Positions 2,393 to 17,746 of a DNA stretch of 64,000 nt are shown piece by piece (position 1 is the stretch's first letter; each line of letters begins with the position of its first letter). The position numbers were made by a program, and so were the translations under genes. The DNA comes from Actinomadura logoneensis (GTDB lineage: Bacteria > Actinomycetota > Actinomycetes > Streptosporangiales > Streptosporangiaceae): positions 1-64,000 of the forward strand of contig NZ_QURH01000316.1 in the NCBI RefSeq assembly GCF_003428695.1. The letters run 5' to 3'. Under the pieces are notes generated by a model that was given only the letters and a program-made list of their open reading frames with translations, did no database searches and was not told the DNA's origin.

Positions 2393-3166
2393 TCACATCC
2401 CCAGGGAGCGGCCGCCGTCGACGACCTGGACGGTTCCGGTGACGAAGCTCGCGCGGGCGCTCAGCAGGAACGTTCCGACCGCGGCGACCTCCTCGGGACG
2501 GGCCACGCGGCCGAGCGGGATGCCCGCCTCCGCGGCGACCCGGGCGGTCTCCGCCCCGAGGTCGCCGGTGAGGCCGCCCAGCAGCGCGTCCGTGGCGGTG
2601 TAGCCGGGCGCCAGGACGTTGACGGTGACGTCCCCGGGCCCGAGTTCGTGGACGAGCGTCTTGGCGTACGCGGCCAGGCCCGACCGGGCGATCGCCGACA
2701 GCGCGAACTGCGGGATGATGTCGCGGATCGTCTCGCTGGCCACCATCAGGACCCGTCCCCACCCGGCCCGCCGCAGGTGCGGCAGCGCCGCCTGGACCAG
2801 CCCGATGTGGGCGATCATCCCCAGCTCGACCGCGTCGCGGAACCCGTCCGGGCCGAACGCGCCGGTCGGGCCGGCGGGCGGTCCGCCCGCGTTGCTGACC
2901 ACGATGTGCGCCGCGCCGTGCTCGGCGGCGGTGTCCTCCACCCAGGCTCGGGCGCCGTCGGTGTCGCGCAGGTCCAGGACGCGGGTGCCGACCACCGCGC
3001 CGAGGTCGGCGGCGATCTCGTCGCGGGCCTTGGCCAGCCGTCCGGCGTCGCGGCCCGCGATCGACACCGTGGCGCCCTCGCGGACCAGGTCCCGGGCGAT
3101 CGCGAGCCCGATGCCCGCCGAGCCGCCCGCGACCAGGGCCACCTTCCCGTCCAGTCCCAGATCCAT
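2393..3166 (-). CDS. Short-chain dehydrogenase/reductase with altered catalytic triad
   Basis: 257-aa classical SDR fold. The nucleotide site is AGGSAGIG (13-20) and NAGG (92-95) is present. The catalytic Ser is S144 (VASET), but the expected Tyr-x3-Lys reads S157-x3-R161 (FALSAIARSGLAAYAKTL). This pattern is known in a branch of SDRs related to 3-oxoacyl-ACP reductases (xLSNxxR types), so the gene is not obviously dead, but its chemistry may differ. One base separates it from the sulfotransferase upstream and 3 bases from the shell gene downstream. Likely substrate is an intermediate of this cluster, such as the hydroxyketone made by the transketolase (inference). Confidence 0.88.
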   Translation of the reverse strand: MDLGLDGKVALVAGGSAGIGLAIARDLVREGATVSIAGRDAGRLAKARDEIAADLGAVVGTRVLDLRDTDGARAWVEDTAAEHGAAHIVVSNAGGPPAGPTGAFGPDGFRDAVELGMIAHIGLVQAALPHLRRAGWGRVLMVASETIRDIIPQFALSAIARSGLAAYAKTLVHELGPGDVTVNVLAPGYTATDALLGGLTGDLGAETARVAAEAGIPLGRVARPEEVAAVGTFLLSARASFVTGTVQVVDGGRSLGM

Positions 3167-3167
3167 G

Positions 3168-4097
3168 TCAGACCCTCGTCTCGTAGCCGTACCGGCGCAG
3201 GAGCGGGAGCGCCAGGAGGGTGGTCGCGGCCCGCTGCGGACGCGGCAGGCCGGTGTGCCAGCGGCGGTCCTCCCGGATCACGGTGCGGCCCCGGCCGAAC
3301 CGGTTGGGGTTGCCGGTGACCGTGTGGTTGCCGCCGAGCTCGACCGTCCCGTCGGCGGCGACGGGGTTGGGGCCGGGGTGCCCGATCAGCCGGAGGATGT
3401 CGCCGACCGCGGCGCGCGGGCTGCGCACCAGGTCCTCGTAGCGCAGGTGCAGCGCGTCCGCCCGGTGGGCGCGTCCGACGGCCTCGGCCGCCAGGTTGAA
3501 CCCGGCCCAGTTCAGCGTGCTGTCGAGCGCGGAGCGGCGTCCGGTGTAGTCCTTGGGTTGCAGCCACGACCACGCCACCGCGCGCGGGTCGCGGATCAGG
3601 TGGACGTAGGACGCGTCGATCCCGGGCATCGCCGACAGCAGCGCCGCGTCGGAGGCGTACTTGGAGCTGTCCACGACGGTGTGCGCATCGCAGACCTCGG
3701 CGATCGCGCGGTAGGTCGCGGCGAGCGTGGCCGGCCAGCCGTCGCGCTGCCCACCGCGCTGCCCGTCTCGCGCGGCGTCGCGGGCCGAGGTGCGCAGCGT
3801 CCGCCAGGTGTGCCGGGTGCGGTTGGTGTCCTGCCAGGCGACGACCTGGGCGGCGTGCCGTTCGAGCGACACCCCGTCCGGCCGGACGGCCTCCAGGACC
3901 CGGGACCAGACCGGGCACTCGCGATGGTTCAGGCCGCATCCGCAGCGGGCGTTGCTGCCGGTGCCGAGCACCCCGTTGCGCCACAGGAAACGCAGCTCGC
4001 CGACATGGACCACGCCGGGCGCCTCGGCGAGGACGTTGCCCAGCACCGTGCTTCCGCTACGGCACCACCCGGTGATGTAGAGAACCTTCATCGGCAA
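3168..4097 (-). CDS. PAPS-dependent sulfotransferase
   Basis: About 309 aa, a cytosolic sulfotransferase-fold protein that would move a sulfuryl group from PAPS to a hydroxyl or amine. The 5'-phosphosulfate loop is YITGWCRSGSTVLG (7-20) and the 3'-phosphate motif is VHLIRDPRAVAWS (165-177). CGCG...RECPVW (52-64) is a Cys pattern common in bacterial relatives. The TTG at 4097 is preferred because GAGGGG lies 6 nt upstream; ATG at 4091 is the alternative. It is the first gene of the operon sulfotransferase-SDR-shell-transketolase. Surveys of family 3 encapsulin loci list sulfotransferases among partners (from memory). A sulfated product or a PAPS-activated leaving step are both possible. Confidence 0.9.
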   Translation of the reverse strand: MPMKVLYITGWCRSGSTVLGNVLAEAPGVVHVGELRFLWRNGVLGTGSNARCGCGLNHRECPVWSRVLEAVRPDGVSLERHAAQVVAWQDTNRTRHTWRTLRTSARDAARDGQRGGQRDGWPATLAATYRAIAEVCDAHTVVDSSKYASDAALLSAMPGIDASYVHLIRDPRAVAWSWLQPKDYTGRRSALDSTLNWAGFNLAAEAVGRAHRADALHLRYEDLVRSPRAAVGDILRLIGHPGPNPVAADGTVELGGNHTVTGNPNRFGRGRTVIREDRRWHTGLPRPQRAATTLLALPLLRRYGYETRV

Positions 4098-4414: not shown

Positions 4415-5461
4415 TCAGGCGTCCCAGCCCGGGTTCTCGGTGATCTCGACGGCGGCGCACACCCAGGCGAACCCGGCGCCGATCCCGACCAGCAGCACCC
4501 GGTCGCCCGGCCCGACCAGGCCGCTCTCGACCAGGTGCGTCAGCCCGGTGAGCTGGTCGGCCGCCCCGACGTGACCGGTGCGGCGGCCCCACTCCCAGGT
4601 GGTCCGCGACAGGTCCAGGCCGAACGGCTCGGCGTAGCGCGTCCGCAGCACGCGCAGGCCCACGTTCGGAAAGACGAACCGGGCGATGTCGTCCAGCTTC
4701 AGTCCGGCCTCGTCCAGCGTCCGCGCGACGGCCTCGGTGAGGCCCGAGGTGGTCCGGTCGGCGACGCTCCCCACCAGCGCGCGGGCGCGGGCGGCGAACG
4801 CGGCGCGGCGTGCCCGGACGTCCACCGGCCGTCCGGGGTGGACCGCGAACGGCTCGTCGCCCCGGTAGAGGCCCTCCAGCGCGGTGTCCACGACCGTCGA
4901 GACCGACAGCAGGCGGGCGAACCCCTCCTGGCCGAGCACCGCCGCCGCCGCGCCGTCCCCGTAGACCAGGCCGGGCAGGTCGGCGCGCCACCGGTCGAAG
5001 CCGGGCCCGCCGAACCGGTCGGCGGTGGTGACCAGCGCGCAGCGGCGGGACGGGTCGGCGGTCAGGTACGAGGCGGCCAGCTCCAGCGCGCCGAGCGCCC
5101 CCGCGCACATCTGCTGGACGTCGAGCGCGGGCGCGTGCCGTCCGTCCTCGCCGAGCACCTCGCGGTGGACGTACGAGGCCGCGGGCCAGTAGTCGATGCC
5201 CTGGAACCACGCCGACGCGTGCAGCAGCAACGCGACCTCGGACGGGGACCGCCCCGCTCGGCGCAGAGCCGCGCGGCCCGCGGCGACGGCCATCTCGGGT
5301 GGTGCCTCGCCGGTGCCGGCGGGGACGGCGGTGATGGCGGCGTACTCGTCGGAGGCCAGGTCGGACGGGTCGTAGCGGCCGTCCGCGACCGCCTCCGCCA
5401 CGTCCACGGCGGGCGGGAGGCGGTGGGCCAGACCGGCGAGGAACAGACCGTCGCAGCGCAT
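4415..5461 (-). CDS. KAS III-like acyltransferase
   Basis: 348 aa, thiolase fold of the ketoacyl-ACP synthase III family. The nucleophile is Cys119 in QQMCAGALGALE. The normal HQAN motif is replaced by FVFPNV (about 262-267), and the GNTSAAS position reads TGHVGAADQLTG, putting His297 there. The end has VLLVGIGAGFAWVCAAVEI. Such substitutions mark the DpsC/CerJ/CloN2-type KAS III relatives, several of which transfer acyl groups rather than condense with malonyl-ACP. ATG 5461 is chosen because GGAGG lies 5 nt upstream; GTG 5467 is possible. In clorobiocin-type pathways CloN2 of this family helps move pyrrole-2-carboxyl from carrier to acceptor, which fits the proline-to-pyrrole genes in this cluster (inference). 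Confidence 0.85.
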   Translation of the reverse strand: MRCDGLFLAGLAHRLPPAVDVAEAVADGRYDPSDLASDEYAAITAVPAGTGEAPPEMAVAAGRAALRRAGRSPSEVALLLHASAWFQGIDYWPAASYVHREVLGEDGRHAPALDVQQMCAGALGALELAASYLTADPSRRCALVTTADRFGGPGFDRWRADLPGLVYGDGAAAAVLGQEGFARLLSVSTVVDTALEGLYRGDEPFAVHPGRPVDVRARRAAFAARARALVGSVADRTTSGLTEAVARTLDEAGLKLDDIARFVFPNVGLRVLRTRYAEPFGLDLSRTTWEWGRRTGHVGAADQLTGLTHLVESGLVGPGDRVLLVGIGAGFAWVCAAVEITENPGWDA

Positions 5462-5470
5462 GAGCACCTC

Positions 5471-5560: not shown

Positions 5561-7894
5561 GTGGGCGACAGGGCACGTACGGTACGGCTTCCCGGCACCG
5601 ACTGGGCGGTCTGGGAGGACGCGGTCCTCCGGAGCACGGGGTTCCCCGCGGACGGGCTCGGCCTGTTCGCCGCCCCGGAATGCGCGTCCGCCGCCGACGC
5701 GTTCCTGGCCGGCCGCGGGAGCGAGGACGAGTTCGCACGGGCCCTCGACAGGGCCCTCGCCGACGCTTCGCGCGCCGCCCGGGAGATCGCCGCCGACCCC
5801 CTGTTCCGCGAGGCCCTGACCTGGCAGAACCCGGCCGCGGCCCGCCTGCTGGCGCGGCTCGCCGAGCCGGAACCGGGCGGCGGGATGACCGGAAAGGAAC
5901 TGCGCCGGGCGCGCCACAAGCGCCGCGCCCGGGAGAGCGCGGTCGTCCGCTACTGGCAGCGGTACTGCGGCAAGAACGACACCATCGGCTTCTTCGGGCC
6001 CGTGACCTGGACCAGGATCGTCCCCGAGACGGCCCCGGCGGTCGTCGCCCGGCCCGGCGCCGGACTCGTGCGGTCCCGCCGGATCGCCTACGAGTTCTGG
6101 GCGCTGGAGGCGTACGTCGAGGCGCTGCTCGCCGACCCGGTCGTCGCGCCGTGGCTGCCCGCGGGAATCCACCCGCACCTGGCCGTCCGGGACGGGCACG
6201 TCCTGCAGCCCGGCAAGGAGCCCGCACCCCTGGACGAGGCGGAGGCGGAGGTGCTGGCACGGTGCGACGGCGTCCGGCCGGTGGCCGAGATCGCCCCCGA
6301 CCCGCGGAGCCTCGCCGCGCTGGACCGGCTGGTGGACGACGGGATCGTCTGGCGCGGCGTGAACATGCCCTACAACGCGCGGGCCGAGAGCGTCCTGCGC
6401 GAGCACCTGGCCGCGATCCCCGATCCGGACGCCCGGGACCGGGCGCGGGCCGGACTCGACCGGCTCGACCGGGCGCGTGACACCGTCGGGGCCGCCGCCG
6501 GCGACCCCGACGCCCTGGCCGAGGCCCTGGACGGACTGGACGCCGAGTTCACGGCCGTGACGGGCGTCGAGCCCCGGCGGCGGGACGGGCAGATGTACGC
6601 GGGCCGCCGCGTCTGCTTCGAGGACACCGTCCGCGACCTGGACATCGAGTTCGGCCGCCCGGTCCTGGACGCCCTGGCGGGCCCCTTCGGGCACGTCCTG
6701 CTGCCCGCCGCGCGCTGGGTCTCGGCCGCCCTCGCCGACGCCTACGACGCCGCCTTCCGGGACCTGTACGCGCGGCTGCGGGAGCCGGGCGCGGACGGCG
6801 TGCCGATGCCGCGGTTCTGGGACGCCGTCCAGCCGCTGCTGACCGGCCCGGACCGTCCGGCGGACGCGGTGGCCGCCGAGTTCGCCCGCCGTTGGAACGA
6901 TCTCATCGGCCTCGCCCCCACTTCCGGTGACACCACCGGTGACACCGGCGGGCGCCGCCTGCACCTGCGCAGTGAGGACCTGCGGGAGCGGGCCGCCCAG
7001 TTGTTCCACACCGACCGTCCGGGCTGGGCCGCCGCCCGCATCCACAGCCCCGACCTGCACATCTGCGCCTCCAGCGTCGCCGCGCTGGAGGCGGGGGAGT
7101 TCACGCTGGTGCTCGGCGAGATGCACAACGCCTGGCCCACCCTCGACAGCGCCGTCTTCACCGACCGGCACCCCGACCCCGACAGCCTGCGCGAGGCCGC
7201 CGCCGACGACATCGGCCGCCAGTTCCGCCCCCTCTACCCGACCTGGTGGCCGCAGTACACCGCCCGCATCGCGCCCGTGCTCGGCGACACCGACCACCAG
7301 CTGGCGTTCACCGCCGCGCCCGGAGCCGACCCCGAGCGCGTCCTGCCGACCGTCACGCTCACCGTGACCGACCGCGGCGGAACCCTGGAGGCCACCGGCC
7401 CCGGCGGGCTCCGCCGCCCGCTGCGCGAGGTGTTCGCGCTGCTGTTCGGCTGGCTGGGGGCCGAGGCGTTCAAGCGCCTCGGCGCGGGCGCGCACCATCC
7501 CCGCGTCACCCTGGACCGCCTGGTCGTCGTCCGGGAGACCTGGCGCACGACCGTCGAAGGGACCGGGATCGCGCCGAAGACCGGCGCCGTCCCCGAGTAC
7601 ATTGCCGCCCGCCGCCTGCGCGCTTCCCTCGGGCTCCCGGAACGCGTCTTCGCCAAGGTCGGCACCGAGGTCAAGCCCGTCTACGTGGACTTCACCGGCC
7701 CCCGGTACGTGTCGTCGTTCGCGGCGATGGTCCGCGCCGCCCGCGACTCCTCCGGCGGCGACGTCCTGGTCACCTTCACCGAGTTGCTGCCGGGGCCCGA
7801 GGACGCGTGGCTGGAGGACGGCCGCGGACGGCGCTACTTCTCCGAGCTGCGCATGCAGATCCGCGACCCGCGCCGTCCCCGGCAAGCGACCTGA
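5561..7894 (+). CDS. LanB-type dehydratase N-terminal (glutamylation-domain) protein without elimination domain
   Basis: 777 aa resembling the tRNA-dependent glutamylation part of class I lanthipeptide dehydratases. Landmarks are YWQRYCGKNDTIGFFGPV (131-148), HSPDLHICASSVAALEAGEF, LVLGEMHNAWPTLDSAVF and, near the end, LGLPERVFAKVGTEVKPVY plus VDFTGPRYV. Full LanB enzymes are near 1,000 aa and add a C-terminal elimination domain, absent here. Stand-alone relatives include PEARLs, which use aminoacyl-tRNA to extend a carrier peptide. No precursor-peptide gene or cyclase is visible nearby, so the substrate might instead be a carrier-bound or small-molecule intermediate (inference). GTG start with GGAGG 5 nt upstream. 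It is followed by the adenylating ligase, probably co-transcribed. Confidence 0.82.
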   Translation: MGDRARTVRLPGTDWAVWEDAVLRSTGFPADGLGLFAAPECASAADAFLAGRGSEDEFARALDRALADASRAAREIAADPLFREALTWQNPAAARLLARLAEPEPGGGMTGKELRRARHKRRARESAVVRYWQRYCGKNDTIGFFGPVTWTRIVPETAPAVVARPGAGLVRSRRIAYEFWALEAYVEALLADPVVAPWLPAGIHPHLAVRDGHVLQPGKEPAPLDEAEAEVLARCDGVRPVAEIAPDPRSLAALDRLVDDGIVWRGVNMPYNARAESVLREHLAAIPDPDARDRARAGLDRLDRARDTVGAAAGDPDALAEALDGLDAEFTAVTGVEPRRRDGQMYAGRRVCFEDTVRDLDIEFGRPVLDALAGPFGHVLLPAARWVSAALADAYDAAFRDLYARLREPGADGVPMPRFWDAVQPLLTGPDRPADAVAAEFARRWNDLIGLAPTSGDTTGDTGGRRLHLRSEDLRERAAQLFHTDRPGWAAARIHSPDLHICASSVAALEAGEFTLVLGEMHNAWPTLDSAVFTDRHPDPDSLREAAADDIGRQFRPLYPTWWPQYTARIAPVLGDTDHQLAFTAAPGADPERVLPTVTLTVTDRGGTLEATGPGGLRRPLREVFALLFGWLGAEAFKRLGAGAHHPRVTLDRLVVVRETWRTTVEGTGIAPKTGAVPEYIAARRLRASLGLPERVFAKVGTEVKPVYVDFTGPRYVSSFAAMVRAARDSSGGDVLVTFTELLPGPEDAWLEDGRGRRYFSELRMQIRDPRRPRQAT

Positions 7895-7956: not shown

Positions 7957-9744
7957 ATGGCCGAGACCTCCGCGAGCCACCCCACCGTGAGCGACCCCAC
8001 CGTGAGCGACCCCACCGTGAGCGACCCCAACGTGAGCGACCCCAACGTGAGCGACCCCAACGTGAGCGACCCCAACGTGGGCGCCCCGTCCGCGGGCCAT
8101 CCCGCCGCGGGCTACCGCGCCGCCGGATGGTGGCGGGACGAGACCTTCCTCGACGACCTGCGCCGCCACGCCCGCGCCACGCCGCGCAAGACGGCCGTCG
8201 TCACCCGCCGCCAGGCGGACGGCACCACCCACCGCCTCGACTACGAGCAGCTGGCCGCCGCCACCGACCGCTGCGCCGCCGCCCTGGTGGAGCTCGGACT
8301 GCGGCCCGGGGACGTGCTGGCCGCGCAGCTCACCGACCGGTGGGAGCTCGCCGCGCTCACCCTCGCCTGTGTCCGCGCCGGGGTCGTGTACTGCCCGCTC
8401 ATGAAGACCTACCGGCGCCGCGAACTCGACATCATGCTGCGCGTCACCGAGGCCCGGGTGCTCATCACCATGGCGGAGGACAACGGCGACCGGCTGGGGG
8501 AGCTGGGCGCCGAGTTCGCCCGCGAGCTGGAGTCCCTGGAGCGCGTCTTCGTCGCCGACGGCCCCGGCCCGGACGGCACCGGCGAGTTCGAGTCGTTCTT
8601 CTTCGGGACGGCCTGGGAGGACCGGCACGGCCACCTGCTCGACGACCGCGAGCTCGGGCCCGACGACCCCTACCTCGTGCTGTTCACCTCGGGCACCACC
8701 AGCGAGCCCAAGGGCGTCCTGCACAGCCAGAACACGCTGTACGCGGCCGTCCGCGGCGAGGCCGACGCCTTCGGGCTGGACGACTCGCTCGTCATGTACA
8801 CCACCGCGCTCTACACCCACTACACCGGCGTGGTCCAGGGGATGCTGATGCCGCTGATGCTGGGCGGCACCATGGCGTTCCAGGACGCCAAGGACCCCGA
8901 CGACGCCCTGGACCTCATGGCGGCCCACGGCGTCACCTTCTTCTACTGCGCGCCGTTCTACCTGCTGAGCCTCATCCAGGCGCAGCGGAAGCGACCGCGC
9001 GAGCTGCCCGCGCTCACCTGGCTGGTCAGCGGGTCGGCGCCGATCCCGCCGTACTTCATCAGCGAGACCCGGGACGTCTTCGGCCTGCGCCTGTTCTCGC
9101 TGTGGGGGATGACCGAGAACGGCCCGGCCACGATCACCCGCCGCGACGATCCGGAGGACTGGGCGGCGCACAGCGACGGCAGCCCCATCGCGGACACCCG
9201 GCTGCGCATCGACCCGGTCTCGGACGACGCCGACGGCGCCGACGGCGAGGGCGTGCTGTGGATCAGCGGCCCGACCCAGTGCCTGGGCTACTACCGGCGG
9301 GACGACCTGTACGAGGCGGAGCTCGACGCGGACGGCTGGTTCAACACCGGCGACCTGGCCCGTCCCGACGGTCGCGGCGGCATCCGCATCACCGGACGCG
9401 CCAAGGACATGATCCTGCGCAACGCCAACATCGTGCCCGTCACCGACCTGGAGGCGATCGTCGGCAGGCACCCCGGGGTCGCCGAGGTCGCCGTCGTCGG
9501 CCTGCGCGACGAGCACGAGGACGAGACGATCTGCGCCGTCGTGCGCCCGGCCGTGCCCGGGCCGCCCGTCGTCCTGGAGGAGCTGCACCGGTCACTGGAC
9601 GCGGCCGGGATGACCAAGGCGTACTGGCCGCGCCGCCTGGAACTGGTCGACGACTTCCCGCGGACCGCCACCGGCAAGATCCGCAAGGCCGAGCTGCGGG
9701 AGCGCTACGCGCCGTCCGGCCCGCCGCGCCCCCACTCCGCCTGA
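7957..9744 (+). CDS. Adenylate-forming acyl/aryl-CoA ligase (ANL) with VSDP repeat N-terminus
   Basis: 595 aa. The ANL signatures are LFTSGTTSEPKGVLH (P-loop), SLWGMTENGPATI, NTGDLARPD, ITGRAKDMI and the C-terminal lysine motif PRTATGKIRKAEL. It should activate a carboxylate as an acyl-adenylate and pass it to CoA, a carrier thiol or an amine. The ATG at 7957 follows GGGAGA. Before the catalytic domain there are about 50 residues dominated by six VSDPT/VSDPN units (11-40), which look disordered and are not part of the ANL fold. Gene order suggests co-expression with the LanB-like gene 62 bp upstream. The substrate cannot be read from sequence by eye. Confidence 0.88.
   Translation: MAETSASHPTVSDPTVSDPTVSDPNVSDPNVSDPNVSDPNVGAPSAGHPAAGYRAAGWWRDETFLDDLRRHARATPRKTAVVTRRQADGTTHRLDYEQLAAATDRCAAALVELGLRPGDVLAAQLTDRWELAALTLACVRAGVVYCPLMKTYRRRELDIMLRVTEARVLITMAEDNGDRLGELGAEFARELESLERVFVADGPGPDGTGEFESFFFGTAWEDRHGHLLDDRELGPDDPYLVLFTSGTTSEPKGVLHSQNTLYAAVRGEADAFGLDDSLVMYTTALYTHYTGVVQGMLMPLMLGGTMAFQDAKDPDDALDLMAAHGVTFFYCAPFYLLSLIQAQRKRPRELPALTWLVSGSAPIPPYFISETRDVFGLRLFSLWGMTENGPATITRRDDPEDWAAHSDGSPIADTRLRIDPVSDDADGADGEGVLWISGPTQCLGYYRRDDLYEAELDADGWFNTGDLARPDGRGGIRITGRAKDMILRNANIVPVTDLEAIVGRHPGVAEVAVVGLRDEHEDETICAVVRPAVPGPPVVLEELHRSLDAAGMTKAYWPRRLELVDDFPRTATGKIRKAELRERYAPSGPPRPHSA
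7987..8076 (+). repeat. 15-bp tandem repeat encoding (VSDP[T/N])6
   Basis: Six in-register copies of GTGAGCGACCCCAMC, two ending ACC then four ending AAC, flanked by degenerate copies on each side (HPT before, VGAPS after). The near-perfect identity suggests recent slippage expansion. It lies in the N-terminal extension of the ANL ligase. Confidence 0.95.
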
Positions 9745-9856: not shown

Positions 9857-11680
9857 TCACGTCACCACACGGACCCCCGTGAGCCACTGGTTCAGTTCGA
9901 GGAGGTAGGACAGGCCGATCGCCGACGTCCGCGCGGTGATCGGCCCCGGCAGGGTGTCGAGGCCGGACGTGACCGCGGTCCGCACCTTCTCCCGGTCCAT
10001 GAGGTCGAACAGCGGCGCGCCCGGCTCCCCGACCAGGTCGAGGACGAGCCGCTGCAGGGACGCGACGTACCCCGGGTCCCGGCTGGCCGGGTAGGCGCTC
10101 TTGGGCCGGTTGACGACCTCCTCCGGCAGGAGGTCGGCGCACGCCCGCCGCAGCAGCGCCTTCTCCATCCCGCCCTCGGCCTTCAGCGCCGCCGGGACGT
10201 TGTACAGGTACTCGGCGAGGCGGTGGTCGGCGAACGGCACCCGCACCTCCAGGCCGACCGCCATGCTCATCCGGTCCTTGCGGTCGAGCAGCGCGCCCAG
10301 CCACCGGGTGAGGCCGAGGTGGAAGACCTCCCGCTCCCTGCGCCGGGCGGCGTCCTCGCCGTCCAGGTGCGGGACCTCGGCCAGCGCCTGCCGGTACCGC
10401 TCGGCCTCGTACTCCCGCGGCCGGACCTCCCGCCTGACCTCCTCTCGGAGCAGGCGTTCGGGCTGGTGCCTGCCGTACATCCACGGGAACGACGGATGCC
10501 GGACGAACCGCTCGTCGGTCTGCCACGCGTAGCCGCCGAACATCTCGTCGGCGGACTCGCCCGACAGGGCGACCGTGCACCGCTCCCGCACCCCGCGGAA
10601 CAGGTGGTACATCGAGGTGTCCAGGTCCCCCCAGCCGGGCAGGTCGCGCGCCCGCAGTCCGCGGTCGATCCCCTCGACGAGGCTGCCGGTGTCGACCTGC
10701 GTCACGAAGTGCTTGAGGCCGAGCCGTTCGGCGACGAGCTTCGCGTACGGCTCGTCCGGGCTGGGCCGCCAGGCGTCGCTCCCCGGACCGGCGGGCGCGG
10801 GGACGCTCACCGAGTGGCTGGTCAGCTCGCCCGCGAACTCCCGCGCGGCCATCGCCGTGATGGCGCTGGAGTCGATCCCGCCCGACAGCAGCGTCCCGAC
10901 CGGCACGTCCGCGACGAGCTGGCGGCGGACGATGTCGGTGAGCAGGGAGCGGACCCGGTCCGTCGTCGCGCCGAAGTCCTCGGTGTGGGGGCGGGCCTCC
11001 ACCTGCCAGTACCGCGTCTCCCGGAGGCCCGCGGCGTCGGCGACCACCAGGCAGCCCGGCCTCACCTCCCGCATCCCGCGGTAGACCGCGTGCCCGGGCG
11101 TCCGGGCGCGGGGGACGGCCATCAGCTCGGCGATCCCCTCGACGTCCACCTCGGCCGCCATCTCCGGATGCGCCAGGAGCGCCTTGGGCTCCGACCCGAA
11201 GACGACGCCGCCGCCCGGTTCCGCGTAGTAGAGGGGCTTGATGCCCAGCCGGTCCCGGACGAGCAGGAGCCGCTGCTCGTGCTCGTCCCAGAGGGCGAAG
11301 GCGAACATCCCGTTGAGCCGGTGGACGAAATCCCGCCCCCACTGCAGGTAGGCGACCAGCAGCACCTCGGTGTCGGAGCGGGTGGTGAACGACCAGCCCG
11401 CCGCCCCCAGCTCCGCCCGCAGCTCCCGGAAGTTGTAGATCTCCCCGCTGAAGGTGACGGCGACGGGCGCGCCGTGCCGTCCCGTCCGGGTCATGGGCTG
11501 CGCGCCGCCCTCGATGTCGATCACGGCGAGCCGCCGGTGCCCGAGCGCGGCGTGCTCGAAGAGCAGGACGCCCTCGGCGTCCGGGCCGCGCGGGCTCTGC
11601 GTCCGCGTCATGTCGGTGATGACGGGACGCTGCCGCCGCAGGTCCCGCGTCCAGTCGACCCATCCGGTGATGCCGCACAT
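9857..11680 (-). CDS. asnB: Asparagine synthase (glutamine-hydrolysing)
   Basis: 607 aa. It begins MCGITGWVDW, so Cys2 is the free N-terminal nucleophile of the class II glutaminase domain once Met is removed; RGPDAEG and FSGEIYNFRELR follow. The synthetase domain has the PP-loop LLSGGIDSSAI and ALSGESADEMFGGY. It makes an amide from a carboxylate using ATP and glutamine. The ATG at 11680 is set by the required MCG start and a GAGGA site. In a biosynthetic cluster AsnB homologues often amidate a pathway intermediate instead of, or as well as, aspartate. Its gene follows the esterase gene with an 86-bp gap in the minus-strand group with the proline-activation genes. Confidence 0.93.
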   Translation of the reverse strand: MCGITGWVDWTRDLRRQRPVITDMTRTQSPRGPDAEGVLLFEHAALGHRRLAVIDIEGGAQPMTRTGRHGAPVAVTFSGEIYNFRELRAELGAAGWSFTTRSDTEVLLVAYLQWGRDFVHRLNGMFAFALWDEHEQRLLLVRDRLGIKPLYYAEPGGGVVFGSEPKALLAHPEMAAEVDVEGIAELMAVPRARTPGHAVYRGMREVRPGCLVVADAAGLRETRYWQVEARPHTEDFGATTDRVRSLLTDIVRRQLVADVPVGTLLSGGIDSSAITAMAAREFAGELTSHSVSVPAPAGPGSDAWRPSPDEPYAKLVAERLGLKHFVTQVDTGSLVEGIDRGLRARDLPGWGDLDTSMYHLFRGVRERCTVALSGESADEMFGGYAWQTDERFVRHPSFPWMYGRHQPERLLREEVRREVRPREYEAERYRQALAEVPHLDGEDAARRREREVFHLGLTRWLGALLDRKDRMSMAVGLEVRVPFADHRLAEYLYNVPAALKAEGGMEKALLRRACADLLPEEVVNRPKSAYPASRDPGYVASLQRLVLDLVGEPGAPLFDLMDREKVRTAVTSGLDTLPGPITARTSAIGLSYLLELNQWLTGVRVVT

Positions 11681-11766: not shown

Positions 11767-12564
11767 TCACCCGTTGCGCAGGTGGCTTCGGGCGAAGGCG
11801 AACATCTGGGGGAGGCCCGCGTCGACGAACTCCCAGTCGTGGCCGCCGGACCGTTCCAGGTACCGGTGGGGGACGGAGCCGGCCGCGAGCGCGTCCCTCG
11901 TCCTGCGGTTCATGGAGATCATCCGTGGATGGTCGTCCAGGCCGATGTCGAGGTGGACCTGGAGCGGGTACGCCGTGTCGCGTTCGCGGATGAGGCGGTA
12001 GGGGTCGTACGCGCGCCGGACCTCGCCGCCGACCGGGCCCCACACCCGCTCGTGGTCCCGGACGGTCGGCATCGCCAGGTTCGGGTCGCCGCGGTGCGCC
12101 GCGTACGGGTCGCCCTCCCTGAACGGCGCCTCGAAGGCGCCGCTGCTGCTGCACACGACCGAGAACAGGCCGCCGTGCCGCAACGCCTGGAAGAGGGCGG
12201 CGGCCCCGCCCATGGAGAACCCGCCGATACCCCGTCCGCCACGCTCCGCCACGGTGTTGAACCGGGCGTCGACGTGTCCGACGACCTCGCCGACCAGGTA
12301 GTCCTCGTAGCGCCGCCCGCGCGCGTCGTTGATGAACCAGGAGCGCCCCGACTCGGGGAGCACCAGGACCAGCCGACCGGAGTCGACCAGGGCCGGCAGG
12401 TTCCCGCACCGCAGCCAGGTGGTGCGGTTCCCGCCGAAGCCGTGCAGCAGGTACAGCACCGGGAACGGCCTGCCGGACGGCGAGTAGCCCGGCGGCAGGA
12501 CGACGGTCACCGACTTCTCCCTGCCGATGGACGGACTCCACCAGCGCTCCGTCAGAACCTCCAT
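11767..12564 (-). CDS. Esterase D-type alpha/beta hydrolase
   Basis: 265 aa, PF00756-type putative esterase. LYLLHGFGGNRTTWL holds the oxyanion region, GFSMGGAAALF the Ser nucleophile elbow, LDIGLDDHP the acid region and SGGHDWEF the catalytic His. No signal peptide, so cytosolic. Only 11 bp separate it from the adenylation gene. It may hydrolyse or transfer an acyl group late in the pathway; CloN7 of clorobiocin clusters is also an alpha/beta hydrolase tied to pyrrole transfer, though I cannot say this is its orthologue. Confidence 0.88.
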   Translation of the reverse strand: MEVLTERWWSPSIGREKSVTVVLPPGYSPSGRPFPVLYLLHGFGGNRTTWLRCGNLPALVDSGRLVLVLPESGRSWFINDARGRRYEDYLVGEVVGHVDARFNTVAERGGRGIGGFSMGGAAALFQALRHGGLFSVVCSSSGAFEAPFREGDPYAAHRGDPNLAMPTVRDHERVWGPVGGEVRRAYDPYRLIRERDTAYPLQVHLDIGLDDHPRMISMNRRTRDALAAGSVPHRYLERSGGHDWEFVDAGLPQMFAFARSHLRNG

Positions 12565-12575
12565 CGCCGGGCCGC

Positions 12576-14177
12576 CTACGACCCGGCCAGCGCGCGCCGG
12601 TCGATCTTCCCGGTCCCGGTGCGGGGGAGCGCGGCGACCACGTGGAAGCGCTCCGGGACCATGTAGCGGGGAAGTTCGGCCAGGCAGTGCCTGCGTACCG
12701 GGGCGAGGTCGAGCGGCTGCTCCGCCGGGACGACGAACGCCTCGACGTGCCGCTCGTCCGGGCCGTCGCCGACCGCGACGCAGGCGACCTCCCGGACGTT
12801 GTCCGCGGCCGACAGGACCGACTCGATCTCGCCGATCTCGACCCGGTGCCCGCGGATCTTCACCATGTCGTCCTCGCGGCCGAGGAAGACGTGGTTCAGG
12901 TCGTCGTCCAGCATGACCAGGTCACCCGTCCGGTACGCGAGCAGCGGCCCCGCGCCGTCCCGGGGGATCGGCACCGTCCGGGACGCGGTGAGCCCGTCGT
13001 CCCGCCAGTAGCCGAGCATCACCGAGTCCCCCGCGACGCACAGCTCCCCGGTCCGCCCCGGCTCGGGGTCGAGCACGCGGCCGTCCGATCCGAGCAGGAA
13101 CGTCGCGGCGTACGGGCAGGGACGGCCGATCGGTACGGGCCGCCTCGCCTCGGGCGCGACGTCCTGCGGGCGGACGGGATGGAACAGGCAGACGTTCGTC
13201 TCGGTCGGCCCGTACAGGTTGTAGAGCGCCGCTCCGGGAACCAGCGCGTGGAGCTGCCGCAGGTGGGCGATCGGGAACGGCTCGCCCGCGAACAGGACGG
13301 CGCGCAGCGGCGATCCGGTCAGCAGTCCGCTGTTCTTCGCGGCCACCATCCGTGTCAGGGCGCCCGGAACCGAGTACCACACGGTGATGCGCCGGTCGGT
13401 GACGAACCTGTTGAGCGCGCCGCCGAGCCCGACCTGGCTCTCCGGAACCGGTACCACGCAGCCGCCTGCGGCACAGGTCGCGAAGAGGTCGAGGATGGAA
13501 AGGTCGAAGTGCAGTGGCGCGTGGCCGGATACCCGGTCCTCGGGGCACAGCCCGAACTCCTCGACCGCCCAGTCCACGAACGCCAGGGCGTTGCGGTGCG
13601 AGAGCGCCACCCCCTTCGGGGTGCCCTTCGAACCGGACGTGTGCAGGATGTAGGCCAGGCTGTTCGGATCGACGTCCGGCAGGCGGACGTCGTCGCCGAC
13701 GGAGGCGGCCACGGCGTCCCGCCAGGCGATGACCGGCCCACCCGCCTTCTGCGGTTCTTCGGCCGTGGGCCCCTGCGCGTCGTCGGGCTCCGGTTCCCTC
13801 GTGCCGATCGACACGATCGGACAGGAGCAGTGGTCGCGCAGCCACCCCACCCGGTCGTCCTGGGCGATCACGTAGGACACGCCGCAGCGCTCGATGATGT
13901 GGGCCGCCCGTTTGAACGGCGCGCTCGGATCGATCGGGACGTAGGCCGCGCCCGCCTTGAGGATGCCGTGGATCGCCACGACCGCCTCCGCCGACTTGGC
14001 CGCCCAGAGCGCCACCCTGTCCCCAGGGGCGACGCCGCCCCGGAGCAATGTCGCGGCGAGGGCCGAACTGCGCGCGTCGAGCTCGGCGTAGGTCGTCGAC
14101 CGGCCCTGGAACTCCACCGCCGGCGCGTCCGGCCGCTTCTCGGCCCAGTGCCGCAGGGCGTCGTTGAGCGCACTCAC
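12576..14177 (-). CDS. Stand-alone amino acid adenylation domain (probable L-prolyl-carrier ligase)
   Basis: 533 aa NRPS-type A domain with no condensation or carrier domain attached. Motifs: YAELDARSSALA (A2 region), YILHTSGSKGTPKGVALSH (A3), LHFDLSILDLF (A4, with the amino-group-binding Asp), NLYGPTETNV (A5), GELCVAGD (A6), YRTGDL (A7), GREDDMVKIRGHRVEIGEIE (A8) and PRTGTGKIDRR (A10). The HAPLHFDLS... stretch resembles prolyl ligases such as RedM and PltF. With the flavoprotein and carrier protein next door, the likely job is loading L-proline on the carrier. The start is GTG 14177, overlapping the flavoprotein stop (GTGA). Specificity is inferred from motif resemblance and neighbours. Confidence 0.88.
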   Translation of the reverse strand: MSALNDALRHWAEKRPDAPAVEFQGRSTTYAELDARSSALAATLLRGGVAPGDRVALWAAKSAEAVVAIHGILKAGAAYVPIDPSAPFKRAAHIIERCGVSYVIAQDDRVGWLRDHCSCPIVSIGTREPEPDDAQGPTAEEPQKAGGPVIAWRDAVAASVGDDVRLPDVDPNSLAYILHTSGSKGTPKGVALSHRNALAFVDWAVEEFGLCPEDRVSGHAPLHFDLSILDLFATCAAGGCVVPVPESQVGLGGALNRFVTDRRITVWYSVPGALTRMVAAKNSGLLTGSPLRAVLFAGEPFPIAHLRQLHALVPGAALYNLYGPTETNVCLFHPVRPQDVAPEARRPVPIGRPCPYAATFLLGSDGRVLDPEPGRTGELCVAGDSVMLGYWRDDGLTASRTVPIPRDGAGPLLAYRTGDLVMLDDDLNHVFLGREDDMVKIRGHRVEIGEIESVLSAADNVREVACVAVGDGPDERHVEAFVVPAEQPLDLAPVRRHCLAELPRYMVPERFHVVAALPRTGTGKIDRRALAGS

Positions 14178-15439
14178 CGCGCGCCCCCACTCGTCTCGGT
14201 GCGGGTATCACCGGGATACCGGGCGCCAGAAGCGGTGTCAGCGTCGGTGGCGGTGTCGGTGTCGGTGGTCTCGGTGTCGGGCCAGGTGATGCCGAGCTTT
14301 CCGGCGATGACCACCCGCTGCATGTCGGACGTCCCGGACGAGATGGTCATCCCGACGGCGTCCCGCAGATGGCGCTCGGTGTCGCCCTCGGAGGAGTAGC
14401 CGAGGGCTCCGTAGAGCTGCGTCAGGCCGGTGAAGACCTCCACGGCGGTCTCGCTCACGTACAGCTTCCCGGCCTCGGGGAAGATGGTCGCGGTGGGCGC
14501 CCGCCCGTCGCGGTCCAGCTCGGCGGCGGCACGGTAGAGGAGCATCCGCGCCAGCTCCCACCGGACCCGCATGTCCACCAGCCGGTTGGAGACCGACTGG
14601 AAGTGCCCGATATGCCTGCCGAACTGCCGCCGCCTGCGGCAGTGCCGCACGCACGCCTCGATCTCGCGCTCCATCACGCCGAGCCAGGGAGCCAGGAGAA
14701 GGGAACGTTCCCACGCCATCGTCTGGGCGAACACGGCCCCGCCCTGGCGCTCGGCGCCGAGCCGCCGGGACGCGGGGATCCGGCACCCGTCCAGCTCGAT
14801 CTCTCCCCAGCGGGCGGTGCGCAGCCCCATCTTCCCGGCCTGCTCCTTCACCGAGACCCCGACGTCCGCGCGCTCGACCAGGAACGCCGTCACGCCGGTG
14901 AAGCCCAGATGCCGCCCGACGGTCGCGTACACGACGAACAGGTCCGCGACCGGCGCGTTGGTGACGTAGAGCTTGCGGCCGGTCAGCCGGTAGAAGCCGC
15001 CGTCCCGGTCCGCGGTGGTGGCGAGCGACGACGCGTCCGACCCGCTGCCCGGCTCGGTCATCGCGTTCGCGCCGATCAGCCGGCCGGCGGCGAGCCCCGG
15101 CAGGTACGCGCGGCGCTGCCGCTCGTCGCCGAACTTCCAGATCGGGACCTCGGCGGCGAGGACGTGCGCGCCGATCGCCATCATCAGCCCGTTGTCCCGG
15201 CAGCCGCGGCCGAGGCCCTCCATCGCGCGGACGTGGTCGACGGCGCCGCGCCCGGCCCCGCCGTACTCCGGCGGCAGCATCAGCCCGAACAGCCCGCGCT
15301 CGGCGCAGGCGAGCCAGTCCTCGCGGCTGAACACCCCGGCCCGGTCGCGCTCGGCGACGTCCTTGCCGAGGGTCTCCTCGCCGAGCCTGCGGAAATCGCG
15401 GCCCAGTCCGTCCCGGTCGTCGTCCCATTCGAATCGCAT
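14174..15439 (-). CDS. Acyl-CoA-dehydrogenase-type flavoprotein (probable prolyl-carrier dehydrogenase)
   Basis: 421 aa. ACAD features: GLFGLMLPPEYGGAG, AMTEPGSGSDASSLAT, RQFGRHIGHFQSVSNRLVDM, LYGALGYSSEGD and the C-terminal SSGTSDMQRVVIAGKLG. The SCAD-position Glu (normally EGT) is Ser here, while WERSLLLAP supplies a Glu where isovaleryl-CoA dehydrogenase and PltE/RedW/CloN3-type enzymes keep their base. This fits FAD-dependent oxidation of prolyl-S-carrier to pyrrolyl-2-carboxyl-S-carrier. The ATG at 15439 is preceded by GGAGA. A 33-residue Thr/Asp/Gly-rich tail (389-421) extends past the normal end and looks disordered. It is first gene of the group running to AsnB. Confidence 0.88.
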   Translation of the reverse strand: MRFEWDDDRDGLGRDFRRLGEETLGKDVAERDRAGVFSREDWLACAERGLFGLMLPPEYGGAGRGAVDHVRAMEGLGRGCRDNGLMMAIGAHVLAAEVPIWKFGDERQRRAYLPGLAAGRLIGANAMTEPGSGSDASSLATTADRDGGFYRLTGRKLYVTNAPVADLFVVYATVGRHLGFTGVTAFLVERADVGVSVKEQAGKMGLRTARWGEIELDGCRIPASRRLGAERQGGAVFAQTMAWERSLLLAPWLGVMEREIEACVRHCRRRRQFGRHIGHFQSVSNRLVDMRVRWELARMLLYRAAAELDRDGRAPTATIFPEAGKLYVSETAVEVFTGLTQLYGALGYSSEGDTERHLRDAVGMTISSGTSDMQRVVIAGKLGITWPDTETTDTDTATDADTASGARYPGDTRTETSGGAR

Positions 15440-16080
15440 GGCTCTCCGTTCGGCCGAGCATAATGTCATGCGACATCAGGAACCGCGCGGGTTCCCGCAC
15501 GCTCGAAGACAGCGGATACGTCGAAAGAAATCCCCCGTGAGGTGCGGTTTCACATTGTCTCGGGCGGACGGTCTCAGGGTGGGGGAGCGGGGGCGGGGAA
15601 CGGAGTCCGGGAACTTCTCAAGCGGCTCGAAGTGACCGTTCCATCACTGTGTGGAATCGTCATGCTCCACCCCTCGGTTCGCGGCGGCCGGGCTACGGGA
15701 AAACAGGCAAAACCCTGTCCCGGCGGAACCGGCCGCTGCCCATTGTCCATGAGACATCCGATCTTGGAAAGGGCGGATCTGGGGCCGGTGGCCGCGCGGC
15801 GGACGGGCCGGGACGATCTCTTGCACGGCGCAGATCGCTGTCGTACGGTACCGACCGTCAACCAACCGCAGTGGTGAACACCGCAGTCCGAGCGCGGGTC
15901 CCGGCCGGCCCGCCGGCGGATCCGGGCTCCCCGGACGGGCGAGCCCCGCCGTCCCGTCCGGCGGCCCGGCGAACACGGCCGCCGGCGAACGCGTCCGATG
16001 TCCCGGATATCGATTTCCGTCCAGCCTCCCACTTCGCAAGGAAATTTCCCGCGACGAAGCCCGCAGAAGAGGTGCATGCT
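15440..16080. promoter_or_regulatory. Long divergent regulatory gap with two related palindromes
   Basis: 641 bp between the flavoprotein gene (-) and the carrier-protein gene (+), with no credible gene. Two similar dyads sit near the two ends: ATGTC-ATGC-GACAT at 15463-15476, 24 bp from the flavoprotein start, and TGTC-CATGA-GACA at 15744-15756 (followed by T). Both share the core TGTC..ATG..GACAT and could bind one regulator that controls both transcripts. Promoter hexamers were not assigned. Confidence 0.4.
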
Positions 16081-16365
16081 GTGGATCGTGCCAAGAACCT
16101 GGATCCGGCGGCGGAGATCAAGGACATTATGATCGGCGTGCTCGAATTGGGCGTCGACCGTTCGCTGCTCGACGATTCGGTCTCGCTCTACTCCCCGGTC
16201 GTGGGACTCGACTCGCTCAGCCTGCTGCACATCCTCGTGCGGATCGAGAAGAGATTCGACATCGAGATCGACGACGAGGACGTGATGTCGGCGGAGTTGA
16301 GCGACGTCGGCAGCCTCGTGGAAATGATCCGGCGGGCCGTCGAGGCGAAGGGCGTTGACGAATAA
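16081..16365 (+). CDS. Stand-alone acyl/peptidyl carrier protein
   Basis: 94 aa acidic carrier protein. The phosphopantetheine attachment Ser is in VVGLDSLSLLHI, followed by VRIEKRFDIEIDDEDVMSAE and SVGSL-type helix III (ELSDVGSLVEMI). The GTG at 16081 is chosen because GAAGAGG (16066-16072) lies 8 nt upstream and the domain starts right after; a longer in-frame upstream reading has no sensible content. It probably holds the prolyl and then pyrrolyl group (RedO/PltL/CloN5 role). The TrpB-like gene begins 1 bp after its stop. Confidence 0.9.
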   Translation: MDRAKNLDPAAEIKDIMIGVLELGVDRSLLDDSVSLYSPVVGLDSLSLLHILVRIEKRFDIEIDDEDVMSAELSDVGSLVEMIRRAVEAKGVDE

Positions 16366-16366
16366 C

Positions 16367-17746
16367 ATGCGCCAGGTATTCCACCTGGAAACGGACCGGG
16401 TGCCCACGCACTGGTACAACGTCCTCGCGGACCTGCCCTTCGAGGTCCCGCCGCCCCGCCCGGCGCCGCCGCGGGAGGGGCGCCCCCGGACGCTGAACCC
16501 CCAGCTGCCCCTCTCGATGTACCGGCCGAGCATCGGCCGGAGCCGGTTCGTGGAGATCCCCGAGCCCGTCCGGGAGGAGTACCGGCGCTGGCGGCCGACG
16601 CCGCTGTACCGCGCGACCCGGCTGGAGCGGGAGCTCGACACCCCCGCGCACCTGTACTTCAAGTACGAGGGGACGAGCCCGTCCGGCAGCCACAAGATCA
16701 ACACCGCGCTGGCGCAGGCGTACTACTACGCCCGGTCCGGCGTGAAGGAGATGGTGACGGGGACCGGCGCCGGCCAGTGGGGCACCGCGCTGTCGATGGC
16801 GTGCCACCCGTACGGCATGGAGTGCACGGTGTTCATGGTGCGCTCGAGCCACCGCCAGAAGCCCTACCGCGGCACGCTGATGCGCCTGCACGGCGCCCGG
16901 GTCATCGAGAGCCCCAGCACCGAGACCGAGGTGGGGCGCGCCGCCCTGGCCGCCGACCCCGACTCGCCGGGCAGTCTCGGGATCGCCAACGCCGAGGCGA
17001 TCGAGTACGCGGCCCGCCGCGACCGGGCGCGGTTCTCGATCGGCAGCGGCGAGAACCACGTCCTGCTGCACCAGACGGTCATCGGTGAGGAAGCGCTCCT
17101 GCAGATGGAGACGGCCGGCGAGTTCCCCGACGTGGTGATCGGCGCGATGGGCGCGGGCAGCAACTTCGCCGGGATCTCCTTCCCCTTCTACCGCGCGGCG
17201 CGGGAGAGGAGCGCCTCCACGAGGTTCCTGGCCGTCGAGCCCGACGCCTGCCCCAAGATGACCAGGGGCCGGTACCTCATGGACCACACCGACTACTCCG
17301 GCGTGACGCCCATGGTCAGGATGTACACGCTGGGGCACACGTTCACGGCCTACCACATCCATGCCGGCGGGCTGCGGTACCACGGGGCCGCCCCGATCGT
17401 CAGCGCGATGTACGACAACGGGCTGGTGGAGGCGGCGTCCTACAGTCAGAGCCGGGTCTTCGAGTGCGGGGCCGCGTTCGCCAGGGCGGAGGGGGTCGTC
17501 CCCGCGCCCGAGTCGGCCCACGCGGTGGCCGCGGCGATCGACGAGGCGGTGAAGGCCCGCGAGGACGGCGCCGAACGGGTGGTCCTGTTCAGCCTCAGCG
17601 GGCACGGGCTCCTCGACCTGACGGCCTACGAGAGCCATCTCGCCGGGAACACCGTTGATGTCGTCCCGACGGACGAGCAGATCCAGGCGTCGCTGCGTCC
17701 GCTCGTCGAGTCCGACGAGACGGCCGGCGCGCACCCCCTGCCCTGA
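16367..17746 (+). CDS. TrpB-like PLP enzyme lacking the catalytic Glu
   Basis: 459 aa, fold type II, TrpB2-like in length and N-terminus (RPTPLYRATRLERELDT). The PLP lysine is K110 in SGSHKINTALAQAYYYA. In tryptophan synthase beta the loop reads ETGAGQ with a Glu that activates indole; here it is VTGTGAGQWG with Gly132 at that place. The phosphate loop GAMGAGSNFAG and the C-terminal LFSLSGHGLLDL are kept. It is therefore unlikely to make tryptophan and is better seen as a beta-replacement or beta-elimination enzyme making a nonstandard amino acid for this cluster (inference). ATG 16367 is used; TTG 16355 overlaps the carrier gene and is an alternative. It is the last cluster gene on this side. 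Confidence 0.87.
   Translation: MRQVFHLETDRVPTHWYNVLADLPFEVPPPRPAPPREGRPRTLNPQLPLSMYRPSIGRSRFVEIPEPVREEYRRWRPTPLYRATRLERELDTPAHLYFKYEGTSPSGSHKINTALAQAYYYARSGVKEMVTGTGAGQWGTALSMACHPYGMECTVFMVRSSHRQKPYRGTLMRLHGARVIESPSTETEVGRAALAADPDSPGSLGIANAEAIEYAARRDRARFSIGSGENHVLLHQTVIGEEALLQMETAGEFPDVVIGAMGAGSNFAGISFPFYRAARERSASTRFLAVEPDACPKMTRGRYLMDHTDYSGVTPMVRMYTLGHTFTAYHIHAGGLRYHGAAPIVSAMYDNGLVEAASYSQSRVFECGAAFARAEGVVPAPESAHAVAAAIDEAVKAREDGAERVVLFSLSGHGLLDLTAYESHLAGNTVDVVPTDEQIQASLRPLVESDETAGAHPLP

Follow-up and report, generated by a model that had tools for sequence, protein, structure and literature searches.

A predicted proline-to-pyrrole module within a family 3 encapsulin cluster of Actinomadura logoneensis

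We analysed a window of 64,000 nucleotides from Actinomadura logoneensis (assembly GCF_003428695.1, contig NZ_QURH01000316.1, positions 1 to 64,000). Between positions 12,576 and 16,365 the window encodes a stand-alone adenylation domain (A domain), a flavoprotein with the fold of the acyl-CoA dehydrogenases (ACADs) and a stand-alone carrier protein. We think it highly probable that these form a thiotemplated proline-to-pyrrole module, and that this module functions within a cluster of which the other unit is a family 3 encapsulin core. The preliminary description of this DNA, made from the letters alone, had named the three genes as a proline-to-pyrrole set beside a shell gene. Open reading frame and domain searches found all three genes where it had placed them. 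The A-domain gene (12576-14177) and the flavoprotein gene (14174-15439) lie on the minus strand and overlap by 4 bp, and the carrier gene (16081-16365) lies on the plus strand, directly before a gene for a TrpB2-like enzyme. A gap of 641 bp separates the flavoprotein and carrier genes, and the divergent promoters of the two would be placed in it. The shell gene (1553-2374) is real and belongs to the same cluster, but it is not adjacent as had been claimed; seven further genes occupy the 10.2 kb that separate it from the A domain.

The product of the A-domain gene is 533 residues long and scored 365.6 bits with TIGR01733, for which the cut-off is 317.4. In a search of the PDB its best single-domain solved relative was PltF (6o6e, 315 bits), in agreement with its earlier naming as RedM/PltF-like. 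We then read the specificity code from the alignment, using positions that we take to correspond to those of GrsA PheA on the basis of conserved motifs. The code is DLLYLALVCK, of which D-L-L comes from HFDLSILDL, Y from VWYSVP, L-A from VLFAG, L from YNLYG, V-C from TETNVC and K from GTGK. All nine positions covered in PltF are identical (DLLYLALVC), and the code of PigI (7thn) obtained by alignment is DLFYIAWVC. The code residues were invariant across 11 loci. The ten-residue code, which the preliminary description had proposed as a check, thus reads as that of a proline enzyme, and we predict that the A domain is an L-proline:carrier ligase specific for L-proline.

The flavoprotein carries all three ACAD domains. 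Its open reading frame extends over 14174-15469, and the start is better placed at 15439 (MRFEWDD), where its relatives start. Glu244, in the motif MAWERS, aligned with the MEWER motif of AnaB, and SSGT stands where ordinary acyl-CoA dehydrogenases have EGT; both the WER base and the loss of the EGT glutamate are found throughout the clade of the flavoprotein. That is, the base had rightly been sought in WERSL and not at the EGT position. The Glu at the WER position is a conserved catalytic base, which is essential in AnaB and Bmp3 (PMC10849742).

The closest solved structures by sequence were AnaB (4irn, 310 bits) and 6cxt (287 bits), the latter being Bmp3 according to PMC10849742. PigA in two forms was next (266 bits for 5zw0, and 264 bits), followed by a butyryl-type ACAD with 231 bits. 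The oxidases of carrier-tethered proline therefore outscore every ordinary acyl-CoA dehydrogenase. We also built an AlphaFold2 model, which reached a pLDDT of 86 with an alignment of 38 sequences; an earlier alignment of six sequences had given a useless model (pLDDT 38). The fold of the model matched AnaB with a Z score of 53.5, PigA with 52.7, 6cxt with 51.6 and a short-chain ACAD with 50.8. The ranking by modelled fold agrees with that by sequence, but it separates the candidates only narrowly; scores within 1 of each other count as tied. We predict from these matches that the flavoprotein is a prolyl-carrier oxidase. Its C-terminal tail of 30 residues was considered as a signal for encapsulin cargo, and this idea was rejected because the tail is missing or unlike in relatives.

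The carrier protein consists of 94 residues and matched the PP-binding family (PF00550) with 36.3 bits against a cut-off of 20.8; its phosphopantetheine site is Ser45 in GLDSLSL, as expected of the stand-alone carrier described before. The gene is kept in the 11 linked copies of the module and also in copies outside shell clusters. Because it is linked in every one of these, we assign the carrier to the module, and we infer that it is this carrier that is loaded with proline.

The three genes are part of a larger unit of seven genes in the order acyl-CoA ligase, AsnB, esterase, A domain, ACAD, carrier and TrpB2. The unit is syntenic in ten further Actinomadura genomes, with protein identities of 67-89%, which is far above chance. 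We surveyed 341 genomes of the host family, of which 70 carry a family 3 encapsulin above the cut-off, and read 58 encapsulin neighbourhoods. In 11 genomes the module lies directly beside the core with its gene order unchanged, and a scan of genome contigs showed that these linked relatives are Actinomadura species. When the 341 genomes were searched with the ACAD alignment, 14 were found to have an ACAD of the module type (642-853 bits, the next match being 399), and all 14 carry this class of shell. Seven genomes possess the core with no linked module, and at first the module was taken to be absent from all of them. This reading was dropped for three of the seven after a genome-wide search, since these three Actinomadura species (G233, G234 and G249) carry the whole seven-gene module 1.8-6 Mb from the core, among unrelated genes. 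The trees of the core and the module have the same main groups. The hypergeometric odds of the co-occurrence were 1e-21 in the family and 2e-12 in the genus, both overstated by shared ancestry. A co-occurrence that is retained despite physical separation is hard to explain otherwise than by a shared pathway. The earlier placement of the module in a shell-bearing cluster is thus borne out by synteny, matching trees and co-occurrence.

Several results weigh against a pyrrole-forming module that works with the shell. The closest single solved relative of the flavoprotein is AnaB, and AnaB halts at pyrroline after removing two electrons. The identity of the flavoprotein is 40% to AnaB and 41% to Bmp3, which is no real difference. 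The best NCBIfam models were those of PigA (NF053553; 374.9 against a cut-off of 500) and RedW (NF045652; 340.9 against 650), and neither equivalog cut-off was reached; judged by its sequence, the flavoprotein is a distinct subfamily of prolyl-carrier oxidase and an orthologue of neither. The carrier gene lies on the strand opposite to that of the A domain and the flavoprotein, and the solved carriers PltL and PigG were absent among the 60 matches listed for this short sequence. Furthermore, four genomes (G276, G277, G340 and G012) have the core without any module, and because of these genomes we conclude that the shell does not need pyrrole.

From the points on AnaB it might be argued that the flavoprotein removes two electrons only and yields 1-pyrroline-5-carboxyl-S-carrier, which would then be used as an imine. 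AnaB is indeed the top match both by sequence and by fold, although by fold it is tied with PigA. In a tree of 47 rows, however, the clade of the flavoprotein (Actinomadura, Saccharopolyspora and Streptomyces) was sister to Bmp3 and PigA (95/92), with AnaB apart. The tree leans toward Bmp3 and PigA and is not proof, as the branches of these two are long and the characterised references few. Where AnaB differs from both pyrrole formers, the flavoprotein agrees with the pyrrole formers at 19 positions and with AnaB at 7. Both lines of evidence are modest; we regard an oxidation that stops at pyrroline as improbable. Taken comprehensively, the proline code and the nearest oxidases (AnaB, Bmp3 and PigA) largely uphold the proline-to-pyrrole reading of the preliminary description, with pyrrole in place of pyrroline being what we infer.

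It might also be argued that the pyrrole module stands by itself as a separate cluster and is simply located next to that of the shell. The set carrier-TrpB2-ACAD-A-esterase occurs outside shell clusters in Streptomyces atratus, where it adjoins a nonribosomal peptide synthetase gene, and in S. huasconensis; a copy in Saccharopolyspora spinosa includes AsnB. No family 3 encapsulin above the cut-off was found in the genomes of these three species. The four genomes with the core alone, and the three species with the module at a separate site, speak for independence too. Against it stand the 14 of 14 module genomes that carry this shell class, even when the two units are megabases apart, and the agreement between the trees of core and module, together with the odds within the genus of about 2e-12, inflated as they are by common descent. 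Mere neighbourhood is, on balance, quite improbable, and we keep to the view that the pyrrole module works with the encapsulin core.

The core itself was examined as follows. Encapsulins are nanocompartments derived from virus shells. The shell protein is a family 3 (natural product) encapsulin of 273 residues on the minus strand, which matched NF041188 with 300.4 bits against a cut-off of 180. It is embedded in a biosynthetic cluster with a short-chain dehydrogenase/reductase (SDR; 2393-3166, PF13561 143 bits) and a sulfotransferase (3168-4046, PF13469), both on the minus strand; a sulfotransferase neighbours encapsulins of many classes. A KAS III-like acyltransferase of the DpsC/CerJ/ChlB3 type (4415-5467, minus strand) belongs to the core as well, and its best PDB matches were DpsC (4xs7, 270 bits), CerJ (3s3l, 263) and ChlB3 (7eqi, 222). 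This protein retains its Cys (QQMCAG) and has PNVG in place of the PHMG of DpsC. We considered it as a pyrrole-specific acyltransferase, which is not supported, because core loci that lack the module conserve it just as well.

On the other side of the encapsulin gene are the N-terminal half (750-1556, PF00456) and the C-terminal half (1-627) of a transketolase, both on the minus strand. The start of the window is the end of its contig (G000:C943), and the C-terminal half is cut there, with its last third on contig G000:C554. That is, the region homologous to residues 20-228 of the G267 protein lies at 627-1 of the window, and that homologous to residues 232-344 lies at 6466-6128 of G000:C554 (locus L157). 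The latter contig also bears LysW, LysX, ArgC, LysZ and LysK. These five homologues stand upstream of the core, their families having been assigned on the relative G267, and they comprise the amino-group carrier protein (AmCP) LysW, LysX, a kinase, a reductase and a hydrolase. Since the split transketolase gene joins the window to the LysW contig, the shell core is complete in the A. logoneensis genome. Encapsulins 73-92% identical to that of the window share the core of transketolase halves, encapsulin, SDR, sulfotransferase and KAS III.

By analogy with the azinomycin/vazabitide pathway (PMC9570651), the LysW/transketolase pathway is predicted to add a C2 ketol unit to glutamate, which would give a C7 amino acid. 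Chloromyxamide is the single product that has been linked to a family 3 shell (PMC8346489), and its C7 pipecolate skeleton would fit the same C7 logic. Other family 3 classes (G043:C24, G326:C47 and G258:C20) also carry transketolase halves, with 63-69% identity, so that several shell classes may share the route to a C7 amino acid. A check for the module in clusters of the other family 3 classes gave A-domain matches alone, none of them above 35% identity.

We therefore considered whether the A domain and the flavoprotein could act on another cyclic amino acid, such as a pipecolate-like product of the LysW/transketolase pathway, given that the core may yield a C7 amino acid able to cyclise; with the code of the proline enzyme PltF, and with the module present in Streptomyces and Saccharopolyspora without a LysW/transketolase core nearby, this is barely plausible. 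The scheme that we favour remains that of proline oxidation to pyrrole. The A domain would activate L-proline with ATP and load the stand-alone carrier. Glu244 of the flavoprotein would then take the C2 proton, and the prolyl thioester would be oxidised twice, by four electrons in all, to pyrrole-2-carboxyl-S-carrier. The core (LysW/transketolase, SDR, sulfotransferase, encapsulin and KAS III-like protein) would produce a sulfated C7 amino acid, with glutamate and a C2 ketol unit as its sources. The pyrrolyl group would probably be attached to this C7 amino acid, or to another amino acid bound to it, as acyl acceptor.

The TrpB2-like enzyme, which depends on pyridoxal 5'-phosphate (16367-17746, plus strand; PRK12391, 625 bits), adjoins the carrier gene. 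Its motif, TETGAGQWG in TrpB2, reads TGTGAGQWG, so that the catalytic Glu, which activates the nucleophile, is replaced by Gly. Glu is present at this position in the solved TrpB2 enzymes 6hul and 4qys and in all 29 other class-wide homologues. Gly was found in 16 of 16 module copies from three genera (13 of 13 examined first, and those of three separate loci). In TrpB the Glu at this position promotes the attack of indole on the aminoacrylate. With this residue replaced, the enzyme probably does not act as a normal tryptophan synthase, and we regard it as a candidate for a new C-C or C-N bond former. A literature search on a Glu-to-Gly change in TrpB gave nothing useful.

An esterase (11767-12564, minus strand; PF00756, 93 bits) lies in the A-domain operon; every copy of the module includes it, and the two are conserved together in three genera. 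Both the TrpB2-like enzyme and the esterase belong to the module, because both are kept in module copies without a shell. An AsnB-like glutamine-dependent amidotransferase (9857-11680, minus strand; PF00733/PF13537, TIGR01536 492.7 bits) is a module member in Actinomadura and Saccharopolyspora, as judged by synteny. An acyl-CoA ligase (7957-9744, plus strand; PF00501, with TIGR03208 at 392 bits, below its cut-off) is a member in Actinomadura and accompanies the module where this stands apart from the core; its N-terminus (7957-8080) has a VSDP(T/N) repeat that is not conserved in relatives. Within the module itself, the step that joins the pyrrolyl group could fall to the AsnB-like, acyl-CoA ligase or TrpB2-like enzyme. 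One could speculate, tentatively and with more doubt than belief, that the portable module of carrier, TrpB2, oxidase, A domain and esterase makes an undescribed pyrrole amino acid, in which the TrpB2-like enzyme couples the aminoacrylate of serine to the carrier-bound pyrrole, and that in Actinomadura this is joined to the C7 amino acid in or near the shell.

Between the core and the module lies a protein with a LanB N-terminal domain (5561-7894, plus strand; PF04738, 94.6 bits), in which the elimination domain PF14028 was not found. It is possibly an enzyme like the peptide aminoacyl-tRNA ligases. Every core locus that has no linked module contains its gene, and in several full clusters the gene is absent or lies elsewhere.

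A proline-code A domain, a stand-alone carrier and an ACAD with the WER Glu are likewise found in the PltF/PltL/PltE, RedM/RedO/RedW, PigI/PigG/PigA and Bmp4/Bmp1/Bmp3 systems. Unlike these, the flavoprotein of the window scored below the PigA and RedW cut-offs, the module is genetically linked with an esterase and a TrpB2-like enzyme, and neither PltL nor PigG was among the 60 matches listed for the carrier. In the AnaC/AnaD/AnaB system of anatoxin, the oxidase has its Glu at the same place as Glu244, whereas the flavoprotein of the window groups with Bmp3 and PigA. The logic of A domain, ACAD and carrier with the same catalytic Glu has been described in PMC10849742, where the ChmG-J and HrmK-N modules for N-hydroxypyrrole also contain an acyl carrier protein, a proline A domain and such an ACAD; the second, ChmG-like N-oxygenase is not in the cluster of the window. 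The family 3 natural product clusters of Andreas and Giessen 2021 (PMC8346489) have the same encapsulin, SDR, sulfotransferase and LysW-type AmCP, and the text of that paper mentions neither pyrrole nor Actinomadura. A literature search for a pyrrole product of Actinomadura gave nothing useful. The pathway to the C7 amino acid (DADH) of azinomycin and vazabitide likewise uses a kinase, a reductase and a two-part transketolase on N-protected glutamate, and vazabitide represents the AmCP version (PMC9570651). In contrast to that pathway, an aminotransferase was not seen among the conserved core genes.

In conclusion, this is a pyrrole module of an ordinary kind in an unusual place. Beyond the preliminary description, our results add its co-inheritance with one class of shell core and a TrpB2-like partner in which the catalytic Glu is replaced. 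According to PMC8346489, one family 3 cluster, that of chloromyxamide, has been studied, and the role of the shell there is open. The three species with the module at a separate site and the four genomes that have only the core offer a natural means of distinguishing the chemistry of the shell from that of the pyrrole. The module hints at part of the product of the shell cluster, and a pyrrole block, with its diagnostic UV and mass signature and its labelling from proline, would offer a handle on the product of this shell class.

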